This document shows, piece after piece, positions 8,411 to 23,075 of a stretch of DNA of 34,478 nucleotides. The DNA is taken from assembly GCA_017524385.1 (NCBI GenBank), contig JAFWSS010000082.1, positions 1 through 34,478 of the forward strand, written 5' to 3'. Source of the stretch: Prevotella sp. GTDB taxonomy: Bacteria > Bacteroidota > Bacteroidia > Bacteroidales > Bacteroidaceae. Under the pieces are notes generated by a model. That model was given only the letters and a program-made list of their open reading frames with translations, was not told the DNA's origin and did no database searches. Position numbers and translations under genes: made by a program. Positions within the stretch are counted from its first letter, which is position 1. Each line of letters starts with the position of its first letter.

Positions 8411-8441
8411 TTGCATTTTAGACGGAAAATCACTATTTTTG
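8411..8441 (+). promoter_or_regulatory. Promoter of the dockerin-like gene
   Basis: TTGC at 8411-8414 (or CTTG at 8410-8413 with 20-nt spacing), then TATTTTTG at 8434-8441. It overlaps the first 10 codons of the longest open frame, so translation must start downstream at 8462 or 8468. Confidence 0.6.
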
Positions 8442-8467
8442 CATGTCCAACATCCATACGCATGCCT

Positions 8468-8926
8468 ATGAGACATTTCACTGCAATAATGGCTTTCATC
8501 ATCACCGTCTGTCTGACGGCGGAAGCACGGGTGTGTCCTATGGAAGAATGCCTACCTCAATCTTCAATTCTCAATCTTCAATCTTCAATTCTCAATCTTC
8601 AATCTTCAATTCTCAATTCTCAATCTTCAATCTTCAATTCCCAATCTTCAATCTTCAATTCTCAATCTTCAATCTTCAATTTTCAATCTTCAATAATAAA
8701 AGGTGATGCCAACGGCGACGGCGACGTCAACATATCCGATGCTGTGCTATTGGTGAACAACTTGTTAGGCACAACGGCCATCGGCTTCATTGCAGAAAAT
8801 TGCGACATGAATTCCGACGGTGACCTCAACGTGTCGGATGTGGCACTCATTATCAAATTGATCATGGAGGGCGACAACACCATGGGGCCTGGAGACGCCG
8901 AAGACCCCGACGTGAATGGCAATTAA
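8468..8926 (+). CDS. Small secreted dockerin-like protein with in-frame heptamer repeat
   Basis: A 152-residue protein in three parts. Residues 1-20 (MRHFTAIMAFIITVCLTAEA) form a signal peptide. Residues 31-75 are a low-complexity stretch of seven-residue units (QSSILNL, QSSIFNS) translated from 19 tandem 7-bp repeats at 8558-8690. Residues 79-140 carry two dockerin type I-like calcium loops, GDANGDGDVNISD (ligands D80, N82, D84, D91) and CDMNSDGDLNVSD (D113, N115, D117, D124), each followed by a hydrophobic helix. The tail is acidic. ATG at 8462 is an alternative start; the still longer frame is excluded by the promoter. Because 133 nt is not a multiple of three, unit gain or loss would uncouple the dockerin domain from the signal peptide. 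No cohesin partner lies in the window. Real expression is not proven. Confidence 0.65.
   Translation: MRHFTAIMAFIITVCLTAEARVCPMEECLPQSSILNLQSSILNLQSSILNSQSSIFNSQSSIFNSQSSIFNFQSSIIKGDANGDGDVNISDAVLLVNNLLGTTAIGFIAENCDMNSDGDLNVSDVALIIKLIMEGDNTMGPGDAEDPDVNGN
8558..8690 (+). repeat. 19 tandem heptamers CAATYYY inside a coding sequence
   Basis: Nineteen consecutive 7-bp units without interruption, mostly CAATCTT and CAATTCT (also CAATTCC and CAATTTT once each). In this orientation the repeat has no stop codon in any of the three frames; the reverse complement has TGA in every frame. The same heptamers occur in intergenic tracts at 19081-19115, 19243-19273 and 34281-34308. Confidence 0.95.
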
Positions 8927-8981
8927 GACTTTGTTTCGCATTTTTTAATAGTACAAACGCGGAAAAATGCTTGAAATTGCC

Positions 8982-11454: not shown

Positions 11455-12129
11455 ATGGTATTCCAACTCAATGAGGAAATAGCATTTCCTGACCCGCGCT
11501 TAGGGGAGGACAGCGGCTTGTTTGCCGTGGGAGGAGACCTGTCAACAGAGAGACTGTTGCTAGCCTACTCCCATGGCATCTTTCCTTGGTTCTCTTTCCG
11601 CCACGGACAAATCCAATGGTTTTGTCCCATGCAACGCTTTGTCATCTTTCCAAAGGAAATCCATGTGTCGCATTCCATGCGTACGCTCTTCAGAAAGGAA
11701 AAATATCGGATGAGCATCAACAGGGATTTCCCCCAGGTCATACGCAACTGCAGCACAGTCAACGGTAGAGTGAACGAGGAATATGCATGGCTGGGTGATG
11801 ACATCATAAAGGCTTACACACGCTTGCATGAGTTGGGGTATGCGGCCAGCGTGGAAGTGTGGGAAGGTGAGAGACTGGTGGGGGGACTTTATGGAGTCAC
11901 CATCGGAAGAGCATTCGTAGGGGAGAGCATGTTCTCGCTCGTCCCAAGCGGAAGCAAGATGGCACTCATATACCTTGCCGCTTTCTTGGAGCAACACGGA
12001 GGAACACTCATCGACTGCCAGATAAGAACCCCGCACCTCGAGACCATGGGAGGAAGATACATCTCATACGACGAGTATCTCTATTTGCTAAGAGGAGGAT
12101 ATAAGGCAGGGGAAGAAGATAACCCTTGA
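11455..12129 (+). CDS. aat: Leucyl/phenylalanyl-tRNA--protein transferase
   Basis: Aat attaches Leu or Phe from aminoacyl-tRNA to proteins with N-terminal Arg or Lys, creating degrons read by ClpS and destroyed by ClpAP. The 224-residue protein shows all family marks: FP (11-12), GLFAVGGDLS (21-30), LLLAYSHGIFPW (34-45), VGGLYGV (142-148), GESMFS (156-161), and DCQ (187-189). Six nt separate it from lepB, so it is the distal gene of that operon. clpS and clpA lie just beyond the intergenic small-RNA/repeat region, placing three successive components of the N-degron pathway together. Confidence 0.96.
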   Translation: MVFQLNEEIAFPDPRLGEDSGLFAVGGDLSTERLLLAYSHGIFPWFSFRHGQIQWFCPMQRFVIFPKEIHVSHSMRTLFRKEKYRMSINRDFPQVIRNCSTVNGRVNEEYAWLGDDIIKAYTRLHELGYAASVEVWEGERLVGGLYGVTIGRAFVGESMFSLVPSGSKMALIYLAAFLEQHGGTLIDCQIRTPHLETMGGRYISYDEYLYLLRGGYKAGEEDNP

Positions 12130-12161: not shown

Positions 12162-12177
12162 CTTGACATAAATCAAG
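12162..12177 (+). promoter_or_regulatory. Crp/Fnr-like palindrome upstream of small RNA copy 1
   Basis: CTTGACATAAATCAAG is a perfect CTTGA-N6-TCAAG palindrome and fits the TTGA-N6-TCAA pattern of Crp/Fnr-family sites. It ends 59 nt before the -7 box at 12237. The same 16 bases stand at exactly the same distance from the -7 box of the second copy (23060-23075). Confidence 0.7.
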
Positions 12178-12212: not shown

Positions 12213-12244
12213 CTTGGAAATATGGGAAAATGTCCTTACCTTTG
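12213..12244 (+). promoter_or_regulatory. Promoter of small RNA copy 1
   Basis: CTTG at 12213-12216 (3 of 4), 20 nt, TACCTTTG at 12237-12244. The paralogous promoter at 22993-23024 has TTTG at the same spacing. Confidence 0.75.
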
Positions 12245-12248
12245 CATC

Positions 12249-12313
12249 GTGTTTTTCATAGTATTAGATTTAAGGTTAACAAGGTAGGGACTCGGCGGAG
12301 CCCCATTTTTTTT
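12249..12313 (+). ncRNA. Candidate small RNA, copy 1
   Basis: A transcript of about 65 nt is predicted from the promoter at 12213-12244 to a terminator hairpin (12287-12293 with 12298-12304, one A-C mismatch) followed by eight T residues (12306-12313). From 12236 to 12282 the sequence matches the minus-strand locus at 23001-22955 in 46 of 47 positions, including GTATTAGATTTAAGGTTAAC, whereas the terminator hairpins differ in sequence. There is no ATG and no conserved frame to a common stop, so it is read as non-coding. A second 9-bp inverted repeat (12283-12291 with 12314-12322) encloses the terminator. The 5' end is estimated from the -7 box. Function unknown. Confidence 0.7.
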
Positions 12314-12360
12314 GTCCCTACCCGAAGTGGTCTTTTGTGAAGTAACGAAGATGTCGAACG

Positions 12361-12492
12361 ATACTCCTTTTATGTAAGAAGTTAGAGAAGTTAAAGAAGT
12401 TATCGCTTCGCTCGAAGTTAGAGACAATACTCCTTTTATGTAAGAAGTTATAGAAGTTAAAGAAGTTATCGCTTCGCTCGAAGTTAGAGACA
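12361..12492 (+). repeat. Two tandem copies of a 66-bp repeat
   Basis: Copies at 12361-12426 and 12427-12492 begin ATACTCCTTTTATG and contain AAGTTAGAGAAGTTAAAG and TCGCTTCGCTCGAAG; they are nearly identical. The purine-rich part is complementary to the pyrimidine-rich nonamers at 12535-12599, so a transcript could fold back on itself. The section 12468-12542 is related in inverse orientation to 26691-26761. Confidence 0.9.
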
Positions 12493-12534
12493 ATGGTTCG
12501 TATATGATGAATTAGATCGCAGAACATATGTCTT

Positions 12535-12599
12535 TAACTTCTCTAACTTCTCTAACTTCTTTAACTTCTAAAAAACTTCTCCAACTTCTCCAACTTCTC
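12535..12599 (+). repeat. Nonamer repeat TAACTTCTC upstream of clpS
   Basis: Four contiguous 9-bp units TAACTTCTC/T/A at 12535-12570, a short A-rich break, then CAACTTCTC twice at 12582-12599. It ends 10 nt before the clpS -33 box. Confidence 0.85.
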
Positions 12600-12609
12600 A
12601 AATATTTAT

Positions 12610-12640
12610 TTTGTCTTTTGCCTCCAAAGCATTACCTTTG
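12610..12640 (+). promoter_or_regulatory. Promoter of clpS-clpA
   Basis: TTTG at 12610-12613, exactly 19 nt, TACCTTTG at 12633-12640: a perfect consensus. The clpS ATG begins only 7 nt after the -7 box, so the mRNA should have no or almost no leader. Confidence 0.85.
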
Positions 12641-12647
12641 CAATATC

Positions 12648-12950
12648 ATGGCAAAGGAACAGTCTTCAGTAAAAGAGCGCCAGCGCACAGGTTTGCGCGA
12701 GCCGCGTCGCTACAAGGTTTATATCCACAATGATGACTTCACCACGATGGACTTTGTGGTGAAAATTTTGAAAGTGGTCTTTTTCAAAAGCGAGGCCGAG
12801 GCACAAACCATCATGCTCAACGTGCACCATAGCGACAAGGGATTGGTTGGGGTGTATAGTTATGATATGGCGGTATCGAAGATGCGGCTTGCCACGCAGA
12901 TGGCCCGTGATGAAGGCTTTCCTTTGCGTATCACCATCGTTCCTGAATAA
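12648..12950 (+). CDS. clpS: ATP-dependent Clp protease adaptor ClpS
   Basis: ClpS delivers N-degron substrates (N-terminal Leu, Phe, Tyr, Trp) to ClpAP. The 100-residue protein has a charged N-terminal extension (1-20), the recognition motif YKVYIHNDDFTTMDFVV (22-38; N28, D29, D30 as in the family), MLNVHHSDKG (56-65) and VGVYSYDMAVSKM (67-79). The long open frame begins upstream in the nonamer repeat, but the promoter at 12610-12640 shows that the first usable codon is the ATG at 12648. Two nt separate it from clpA. With aat just upstream, this sets out tag, adaptor and unfoldase in a row. Confidence 0.95.
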   Translation: MAKEQSSVKERQRTGLREPRRYKVYIHNDDFTTMDFVVKILKVVFFKSEAEAQTIMLNVHHSDKGLVGVYSYDMAVSKMRLATQMARDEGFPLRITIVPE

Positions 12951-12952
12951 AA

Positions 12953-15175
<2,223 letters not shown>

Positions 15176-21990: not shown

Positions 21991-22668
21991 TTAATCCTCT
22001 GTATCTGTATCTATAGCCCTCCAGATGAGTGAGGCAATGGCGCCTCCAATGAGTGGCCCTACGATGAAAACCCACAATTCCGAAAGCGCTTGGCCACCGG
22101 TGAAAATGGCGGGGCCGATGGAGCGGGCTGGATTGACTGACGTTCCGGTGAAGCGTATGCCCACAAGGTGAATCAAGATGAGGGCAAGGCCGATGGCTAT
22201 GCCGGCGATGTTGTTGGTGGCGCCGTTGGTCTTTGATGTCGCACCAAGCACTACAAGCACGAAAAGAGTGGTGAGAACGATTTCAACAATCAAACCATTG
22301 GTGACGTCGAAAGCACAGGTGTTGGCTCCGAGGCCGTGAAGCACTGTGGGGTTTGATGTCACAACGATGCCCAATAGCAACGCTGCAGCCAAAATAGCAC
22401 CAATCACCTGGGATATCATATACATCAAGCAATCTTTTTTCCTCATCCTTCCACATAGGAAAACGCCCAATGTGATGGCGGGATTGATGTGGCATCCTGA
22501 GATGCCGCCAATGGTATAGGCCATGGCAACCACTGAAAGACCGAAAGCCATCGCCGTGCCTACTACTGTTGCCGGGGAAGAAACATCGCATCCCAAGGCT
22601 ACGGCTGCTCCACATCCCAAGAAAGTGAGGACGAATGTTCCCACCAATTCTGCTAAATACTTCTTCAT
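21991..22668 (-). CDS. aqpZ: Aquaporin Z-type water channel
   Basis: A 225-residue six-helix major intrinsic protein. Both NPA boxes are intact (62-64 in GCHINPAITLG, 179-181 in GTSVNPARSIGPA). The selectivity-filter residues are those of water-specific AqpZ: F42, H167, T176 and R182, so water rather than glycerol passage is expected. The C-terminus is short and acidic. Own promoter at 22783-22814, with a leader of about 110 nt containing a 20-bp direct repeat; terminator at 21932-21972. Confidence 0.95.
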   Translation of the reverse strand: MKKYLAELVGTFVLTFLGCGAAVALGCDVSSPATVVGTAMAFGLSVVAMAYTIGGISGCHINPAITLGVFLCGRMRKKDCLMYMISQVIGAILAAALLLGIVVTSNPTVLHGLGANTCAFDVTNGLIVEIVLTTLFVLVVLGATSKTNGATNNIAGIAIGLALILIHLVGIRFTGTSVNPARSIGPAIFTGGQALSELWVFIVGPLIGGAIASLIWRAIDTDTED

Positions 22669-22814: not shown

Positions 22815-22924
22815 ATTTTTTAAGATTTTTCTCTTGGAAAAATTGAAAATACAGAAAAACAAGAAAGGCTGGAAAAATACAGAATATATGGAAAGTCTAA
22901 GAAGACGATGAAATCACAGGAAAC

Positions 22925-22988
22925 AAAAAAAGGAGTACCGCTGTACTCCAACCTTTGTTAACCTTAAATCTAATACTATGAAAAACAC
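22925..22988 (-). ncRNA. Candidate small RNA, copy 2
   Basis: A transcript of about 64 nt is predicted on the minus strand from the promoter at 22993-23024 to a perfect 7-bp hairpin (GGAGTAC/GTACTCC, 22949-22943 with 22938-22932) followed by seven U (22931-22925). It shares the 47-nt block 23001-22955 with copy 1 (12236-12282), one mismatch. The terminator stem sequence is unrelated to that of copy 1, so the shared part is likely the functional region. A GTG-initiated frame runs through it but is not kept in copy 1. The 5' end is inferred from the -7 box. Function unknown; it lies between aqpZ and the divergent secreted-protein gene but has its own terminator. Confidence 0.72.
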
Positions 22989-22992
22989 GTTG

Positions 22993-23024
22993 CAAAGGTA
23001 ATGACTTTTGACCAAACCTCCAAA
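22993..23024 (-). promoter_or_regulatory. Promoter of small RNA copy 2
   Basis: On the minus strand TTTG (23024-23021), 20 nt, TACCTTTG (23000-22993). Confidence 0.8.
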
Positions 23025-23059: not shown

Positions 23060-23075
23060 CTTGACATAAATCAAG
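23060..23075 (-). promoter_or_regulatory. Crp/Fnr-like palindrome upstream of small RNA copy 2
   Basis: The 16 bases CTTGACATAAATCAAG on the plus strand, a CTTGA-N6-TCAAG palindrome, begin 59 nt beyond the -7 box (bases 23001-23059 lie between). The distance equals that at copy 1; the asymmetric centre is inverted relative to transcription, as is harmless for a palindromic site. Confidence 0.7.

Follow-up and report, generated by a model that had tools for sequence, protein, structure and literature searches.

The window, a stretch of 34,478 nucleotides from a Prevotella assembly, contains two small RNA genes that match Rfam family RF04319 (BTncRNA_FopS) over the full length of the model (cmscan, positions 1-71 of 71). 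Copy a scores 73.1 bits and copy b 77.4 bits against a cut-off of 56. Copy a (12249..12316, + strand) is located between aat, encoding leucyl/phenylalanyl-tRNA-protein transferase (11455..12129, +; PF03588, E 5.8e-67), and clpS (12639..12950, +; PF02617, E 2e-30), the latter followed by a clpA-like Clp ATPase gene (12953-15175, +; Clp/AAA domains). Copy b (22922..22988, - strand) lies upstream of a gene for an aquaporin-type channel (MIP; 21991..22668, -; PF00230, E 2.7e-56). An earlier note on this DNA had found the same two loci but did not recognise the RNA as a known family; it belongs to FopS, published in January 2025 from Bacteroides thetaiotaomicron (Ruttiger et al. 2025, PMC11697453). 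The window genes are thus members of an already known RNA family, and the gene itself is no discovery.

As that note had stated, the two loci share a 47-nt block with 46 identities (12236-12282 on the + strand and 23001-22955 on the - strand). Searched with one free position, the block gives two exact matches in the window and none in 100 dinucleotide shuffles. The sole mismatch, T/A, falls immediately before the predicted RNA start, which we set at the first model position (the G of GTGTTTTTCAT; 12249 in copy a and 22988 in copy b). The block starting at 12236 does begin at the promoter, with the -7 box, but the gene proper of copy a occupies 12249-12316.

In copy a, a TTGG element at -33 (12214..12217, +) and a -7 element TACCTTTG of the TAnnTTTG type (12237..12244, +) together form a predicted Bacteroidetes-type promoter, and copy b carries the same -7 element at 22993..23000 (-). 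By sequence, both genes have a putative sigma-ABfr-type promoter, with TACCTTTG at -12..-5 and TTGG/TTTG near -33, and TTG at the -33 place is prominent in the promoter logos of both Prevotella and Bacteroides-like copies (the latter from genera g3 and g13). A scan for sigma-70 promoters and terminators between 12100 and 12500 detected no terminator and a single promoter-like match (0.5 expected), TTGACA at 12163, which lies inside the upstream dyad described below.

The two copies have a common 5' part of 34 nt, followed by a hairpin and T tract that differ in sequence. The 5' seed region (R1/R1') of copy a, delimited by its identity to other copies, spans 12249..12282 (+), and its first 24 nt are unpaired in the predicted fold. 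At least positions 1-24 are likewise predicted to be unpaired in four of the five copies of the source genome, the exception being the copy on contig C3. The putative intrinsic terminator of copy a (12287..12313, +) consists of the hairpin GGGACTC-GGCG-GAGCCCC with one A-C mismatch (12287-12304) and a T8 tract (12306-12313); that of copy b (22925..22949, -) consists of GGAGTAC-AGCG-GTACTCC (22949-22932) and a T7 tract (22931-22925), so that the hairpin and U7-8 tract noted earlier soon after the block are found at each locus. It was also correct that neither copy holds an ATG, although both open with GTG; copies elsewhere with a G at position 12 have an ATG at positions 10-12.

Directly 3' of copy a, window positions 12361-12610 contain imperfect direct and inverted repeats of the AAGAAGTTAGAGAAGTTA / TAACTTCTCTAACTTC type. 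Elsewhere in the window (8440-8930), a frame at 8411-8926 appears by eye to encode repeated SSIFNSQ-like units and then a dockerin-like segment.

FopS across the genus and the family

The assembly of the window comprises 5.05 Mb in 272 contigs and is 99.9% complete with 6.6% contamination; given this fragmentation and contamination, copies outside the window may not all belong to the source genome. Five FopS genes exceed the cut-off, two in the window contig and one each on contigs C72, C155, and C3, and the gene is therefore multicopy in one genome, as FopS is in B. thetaiotaomicron. FopS is present in 141 of 150 sampled genomes of the window's genus and in all 69 of those with at least 90% completeness and at most 5% contamination. 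At the family level it is found in 277 of 301 genomes and 29 of 30 genera. Genus genomes having FopS carry 1-6 copies and genomes elsewhere in the family up to 14, the filters in these large-sample counts being such that weak copies may be missed. A search of named genomes for the exact combination of -7 element and core recovered 71 stretches, mostly in Prevotella or Prevotellaceae and several from rumen samples, with a few matches in Bacteroides, Phocaeicola, Alloprevotella, Paraprevotella, and Marseilla. In genus g20, 16 listed genomes have no FopS match, 10 of them at least 90% complete.

The earlier note's view that each locus is an independent sRNA gene of about 65 nt with its own terminator, and that the two are paralogues, agrees with the full-length RF04319 matches, and homologues in B. 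thetaiotaomicron give bands of about 65 and 70 nt on northern blots (PMC11697453). Its observation that the hairpins differ in sequence while keeping their place extends to a larger set: a terminator hairpin and T run follow the core in 135 of 139 distinct copies, starting 35-43 nt from the 5' end and comprising 42 different stem arms, whereas shuffling of the 3' part leaves 18 of 139. That set was picked by similarity of the core, and conservation of the core within it is consequently no evidence. In a set of 65 copies picked by family score, position 12 is the only variable one among the first 22, and the window copies are identical to all 20 Bacteroides-like copies over the first 31 nt. A short peptide gene, with a GTG-initial transcript serving as a leaderless open frame, can practically be dismissed: the frame GTG TTT TTC ATA GTA TTA GAT TTA AGG TTA ACA is open through the core and a seed variant with a 3-nt insertion preserves it, but the two copies end it differently (in copy a it stops at a TAG, 12285-12287, immediately ahead of the stem, and in copy b it reads on through the terminator), the near-invariance of the first 22 positions includes third codon positions and so fits pairing rather than coding, and the B. 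thetaiotaomicron authors excluded sORFs (PMC11697453).

In B. thetaiotaomicron, the RRM-1 protein RbpB associates with the FopS RNAs and lifts the repression that they exert (PMC11697453). This association is a feature of the B. thetaiotaomicron system and stands outside the definition of the RNA family. A PF00076 profile search of the source genome gave no match, and the RbpB association thus has no counterpart by this search, which was positive in a Bacteroides control genome. Judged by the PF00076 domain only, RRM-1 proteins are scarce in the genus (5 of 150 genomes; 4 of 69 of the better ones) and occur in 49 of 301 family genomes and 14 of 30 genera, some of these matches being weak. As FopS is near-universal and RRM-1 rare, the RNA is common where no RRM-1 protein is detected, and the published Bacteroides model of RbpB and FopS is not simply transferable to Prevotella. 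The five RRM-1-bearing genus genomes (G024, G030, G051, G112, and G125) hold 5, 4, 4, 3, and 5 FopS copies, respectively, in the upper part of the 1-6 range; any link between RRM-1 presence and copy number may reflect one clade.

Two upstream dyads and the paralogue lines

Upstream of each window copy lies a 14-bp dyad on which the earlier note was silent, TTGACATAAATCAA for copy a (12163..12176, +) and TTGATTTATGTCAA for copy b (23061..23074, -). The two are mutual reverse complements and are centred at -79.5 from the predicted FopS 5' end. The window has no TTGAYN4RTCAA sites other than these two, against 0.29 expected, and both lie before FopS. We refer to promoters with this TTGA-N6-TCAA dyad as class A. 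In a first set of 156 copies, reduced to 140 by dropping repeats and short upstream stretches, the dyad occurs within 200 nt in 79 of 140, while three control dyads match 0-1 times and every altered spacing once; within 100 nt it occurs in 78 of 140, compared with 0-3 in 20 shuffles. Because this set leans towards Prevotella, a dyad-blind set of 65 promoters was fetched (40 copies from 15 genus genomes, 20 Bacteroides-like copies, and the 5 of the source genome). Class A accounts for 24 of its 45 Prevotella copies, including both window copies, with the centre at -79.5 in 21 and at -80.5 in 3; it is absent from the Bacteroides-like copies (0 of 20). Across the 301 family genomes, a dyad-plus-core pattern identified 84 sites in 67 genomes and 9 of 30 genera (reversed control, 0). 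With lengths of 87-111 nt allowed, 59 of the 84 sites measure 97 nt and 82 measure 96-98 nt. The record of Prevotella sp. oral taxon 299 has TTGATAAAAATCAA at about the same upstream place.

We take the consensus of a Crp/Fnr dyad to be TTGAT-N4-ATCAA, and the class A box is presumably FNR-like in look, the window boxes being one base off in one half-site. In sequence and fixed position the dyad resembles the site of a Crp/Fnr-type activator, and we infer that it serves as one. FnrS and other FNR-activated enterobacterial sRNAs are preceded by an FNR-type TTGAT-N4-ATCAA dyad, and FopS is similar to these in being an sRNA gene behind such a dyad. However, the dyad is typically at -41.5 in FNR-activated promoters and at -79.5 in FopS, and we know of no sequence kinship between FnrS-type sRNAs and FopS.

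The class A dyad is not confined to FopS. In the source genome, TTGAYNNNNRTCAA followed by TAnnTTTG at 50-80 nt occurs at 14 sites (reversed control, 0). Seven of these have the FopS span of 82 nt, namely three FopS genes and four other sites, for which the next frames encode an aminotransferase class IV protein (C72), a protein with no Pfam match (C48), a DUF6242 protein (C188), and nothing clear (C105). Another three sites, with the TTGATTTATGTCAA dyad at a span of 92, precede an rRNA-type leader (C97:10733, L230; C223:15232, L236; C49:247, L226); a 16S gene follows on C97, while the other two sites are close to contig ends and were assigned by the shared leader. Compared with FopS, these rRNA-type promoters have the dyad shifted away from the -7 element by exactly 10 bp (span 92 vs 82). 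We also fetched 80 upstream stretches of 16S genes over the family, 76 of them with a candidate -7 element and two of only 17 and 172 nt owing to contig ends. The exact dyad is present at a span of 91-92 in seven of the 80 (6 of 21 in the genus and 1 of 1 in g2), and a further two exact dyads are situated 600-800 nt upstream of 16S, away from the promoter. As all seven belong to g1 or g2, we rejected the dyad as a general rRNA control in the family; its rRNA link is real but limited, comprising those genus and g2 operons and the three contigs of the source genome. E. coli rRNA promoters have upstream Fis sites at helix-phased distances, and the class A dyad is comparable as a helix-phased upstream site at rRNA operons, although the motif differs. 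The span-82 dyad on C72 (C72:1881-1962, L227) stands before a leader of about 350 nt of the aminotransferase class IV (ilvE-like) gene, with a short frame, MDIFIMAVRILGVMAEIKEKTHKVFG, inside the leader. Three non-FopS dyad promoters (L227, L231, and L234) have a TGTGTGCGCACAC-like palindrome across their -33 region.

It is conceivable, though we consider it unlikely, that the -79.5 dyad is a repressor site, or a curved-DNA or UP-like element that merely resembles an FNR box. The regulatory reading of the dyad is drawn from sequence only, and an A/T-rich upstream element at rRNA promoters could act directly on RNA polymerase. Against this, the outer bases show two-fold symmetry, the position is fixed, and the dyad is shifted by 10 bp at rRNA promoters (span 82 vs 92), all of which is usual for an upstream-bound activator and not for an UP element. 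We thus favour an activator site.

Most copies outside class A share another dyad. A TTAA-N6-TTAA-like dyad near -67.5, which we take to be PrfA-like in look, is found in 37 of 41 such copies (21 Prevotella and 20 Bacteroides-like) when 6 or more of the 8 positions of TTAA-N6-TTAA must match and the centre must fall between -70.5 and -66.5, a motif and thresholds that were set after viewing the sequences and applied to related copies that are not independent. With shuffling (20 rounds) the corresponding counts are 1-12, and class A copies give 2 of 24; by the criteria used 4 of the 65 promoters have neither dyad. When a weight matrix was derived from the Bacteroides-like promoters and applied to those of Prevotella, the shuffled 95th percentile was exceeded by 14 of 21 non-A copies as opposed to 2 of 24 in class A (rank test p = 8e-5). 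A sub-group of 10 of the 21 non-class-A Prevotella copies is marked by an insertion of 3 nt behind GATT, in the 3' part of the seed; it includes the source genome's own C3 copy (C3:22827-22897), which also has CATGG for CATAG.

Class A and non-A copies occur side by side in the genus: among 22 genomes counted for both FopS and the dyad-plus-core pattern, class A is represented in 16, with a non-A copy alongside it in 15 of them, and the remaining six are without an exact class A dyad though FopS is present. Moreover, the promoter class stays with the neighbourhood across genomes. Among 130 loci of other genomes, fetched irrespective of the dyad and scored for neighbour genes within 3.5 kb, the MIP (aquaporin) gene of the copy b line is shared by 16 loci and the PPDK_N gene of the C155 line by 16 (15 distinct), and all 16 are class A in each case. 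The holin-like gene of the C72 line is shared by 10, of which 9 are non-A and 1 is too short to judge (8 and 1 distinct), and the DUF3256 gene of the C3 line by 3, all non-A. For copy a, aat or clpS is shared by only one locus each. Since class follows neighbourhood, at least three paralogue lines seem to have been inherited with their own promoter rather than freshly copied. Promoter class, and in part the seed, therefore separates paralogue lines whose class is stable from one genome to the next, which bears on why the copies are kept.

These fixed neighbours (MIP 16, PPDK_N 16, and holin-like 10 of 130 loci) also make it very improbable that FopS is a mobile repeat or phage-derived piece copied about the genome, with promoter and terminator incidental. 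Dissemination by phages was suggested in the 2025 paper (PMC11697453), and we found FopS in 13 viral contigs. However, the five copies of the source genome share little beyond the promoter elements and the RNA, and the terminators differ in sequence while keeping their place, so that inherited sRNA genes remain the better account. By eye, 10 viral contigs with a visible promoter resemble the second class, and one (L157) has too little upstream DNA for a class to be given. The viral copies at L155:5870-6080 and L163:4700-4855 have no recognisable promoter; one of them starts soon after a tRNA-like sequence, again by eye, as if excised from a longer transcript, and ARAGORN and Rfam found no tRNA at that sequence. 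Among the plasmid and phage records listed, some of them unannotated, no annotated feature lies under the FopS match.

Proposed mechanism and relation to known systems

FopS of B. thetaiotaomicron is a family of sRNAs of about 65-70 nt whose 5' seed blocks translation of susC-like mRNAs, and the family thereby regulates, by switching off, sugar-uptake genes in gut bacteria (PMC11697453). Induction by bile salts is a further trait of the B. thetaiotaomicron system. The window genes agree with the family in the 5' seed, the size, the single-stranded 5' part with intrinsic terminator, the multicopy state, and the sigma-ABfr-type promoter. By contrast, 12-15 copies are reported in Bacteroides as opposed to 1-6 per genome in our Prevotella sample, and Prevotella differs further in that an RRM-1 protein is rarely found, a class A dyad lies upstream of about half of the copies, and a sub-group bears the seed insertion. 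GibS (RF04182), an RNA of about 145 nt, shares the R1 seed at its 5' end, but FopS is half its length and far below its cut-off: copy a scores 38.7 bits against 115, and the best match in the source genome, which overlaps the C72 FopS copy, reaches 42.6 bits, below the cut-off for membership. The promoter motif PM2 used by GibS was likewise rejected as the upstream element, as it lies at -10/-30 (PMC7366714) and neither dyad matches it.

We estimate a probability of roughly 80% that both loci encode FopS sRNAs with the following mechanism, which combines a TAnnTTTG promoter, an own terminator, seed pairing, and a regulator at -79.5. Each gene would be transcribed from its Bacteroidetes-type (TAnnTTTG, sigma-ABfr-type) promoter and end at its own intrinsic terminator, yielding an RNA of about 65 nt. 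The single-stranded 5' end GUGUUUUUCAUNGUAUUAGAUUUAAGG would pair with translation start regions (the complement begins AUGAAAAA). By analogy with B. thetaiotaomicron, pairing at AUGAAAA-type starts, particularly those of susC-like outer-membrane transporter mRNAs, may block initiation. Because an RRM-1 (RbpB-type) protein is rarely found, Prevotella FopS probably acts without one or with another protein. A regulator acting as a dimer, most probably a member of the Crp/Fnr superfamily, would bind TTGAY-N4-RTCAA at -79.5 and activate the class A paralogues, while the other paralogues, whose seed is identical or almost so, may answer to the TTAA-N6-TTAA-type dyad near -67.5.

A broader proposal, to which we give about even odds, is that the FopS genes of the family are wired to two largely exclusive, position-locked Crp/Fnr-type dyads (TTGAY-N4-RTCAA at -79.5 and TTAAW-N4-GTTAW near -67.5), such that one Prevotella cell would hold same-seed paralogues under two inputs. 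As the first input is common to rRNA operons in some species, FopS output would track a growth- or redox-responsive activator, and all of this would take place without an RRM-1 protein. The B. thetaiotaomicron paper refers to the FopS regulator only as unknown, asks why many copies are kept, and describes little sub-diversification among them (PMC11697453). If true, the two-dyad wiring would offer a concrete reason for keeping several sRNA copies and a candidate for the FopS regulator, and the RRM-1 protein thought to be central to the FopS network would be dispensable in it. The dyads themselves provide a directly testable handle on that regulator. Within the open-access literature searched on FopS, FNR sites, rRNA promoter control, and RRM proteins in Prevotella, we found nothing on these dyads, on their division among paralogues, or on the scarcity of RRM-1 beside FopS.

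Seed pairing was scored as duplex energies at 207 start regions, 26 of them SusC, in about 398 kb (about 8%) of the source genome, each start being the most upstream ATG, with more than one possible in-frame ATG in several SusC genes. The mean energy is -9.78 for the seed and -8.62 (sd 0.42) for shuffled seeds, better than 59 of 60 of these, and the 26 SusC starts average -10.54 as against -8.56 (sd 0.60). Over the 207 start regions strong duplexes (<= -15) are not in excess, with 5 compared with a mean of 3.2 and a maximum of 9 in 60 shuffles, and the same number, 5, is obtained at this threshold from stretches lying downstream of the starts. Across the whole genome, the complement of the 27-nt seed, with as many as 3 mismatches allowed, matched only the FopS genes themselves. 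The duplex scoring thus lends weak support to the published susC mechanism in the source genome.

It is possible, although we consider it the less probable case, that Prevotella FopS no longer controls susC and targets other AUGAAAA-rich starts, such as those of lipoprotein, lpxB, and glycosidase genes. The best predicted duplexes are those of a pectinase-like 467-aa gene (-18.8) and an lpxB-like gene (-18.4), both labelled by eye, and a susC ranks behind them at -16.7. However, this ranking comes from the same sample of about 8% of the genome, and the SusC starts as a group pair better than the other starts (-10.54 vs -9.67).
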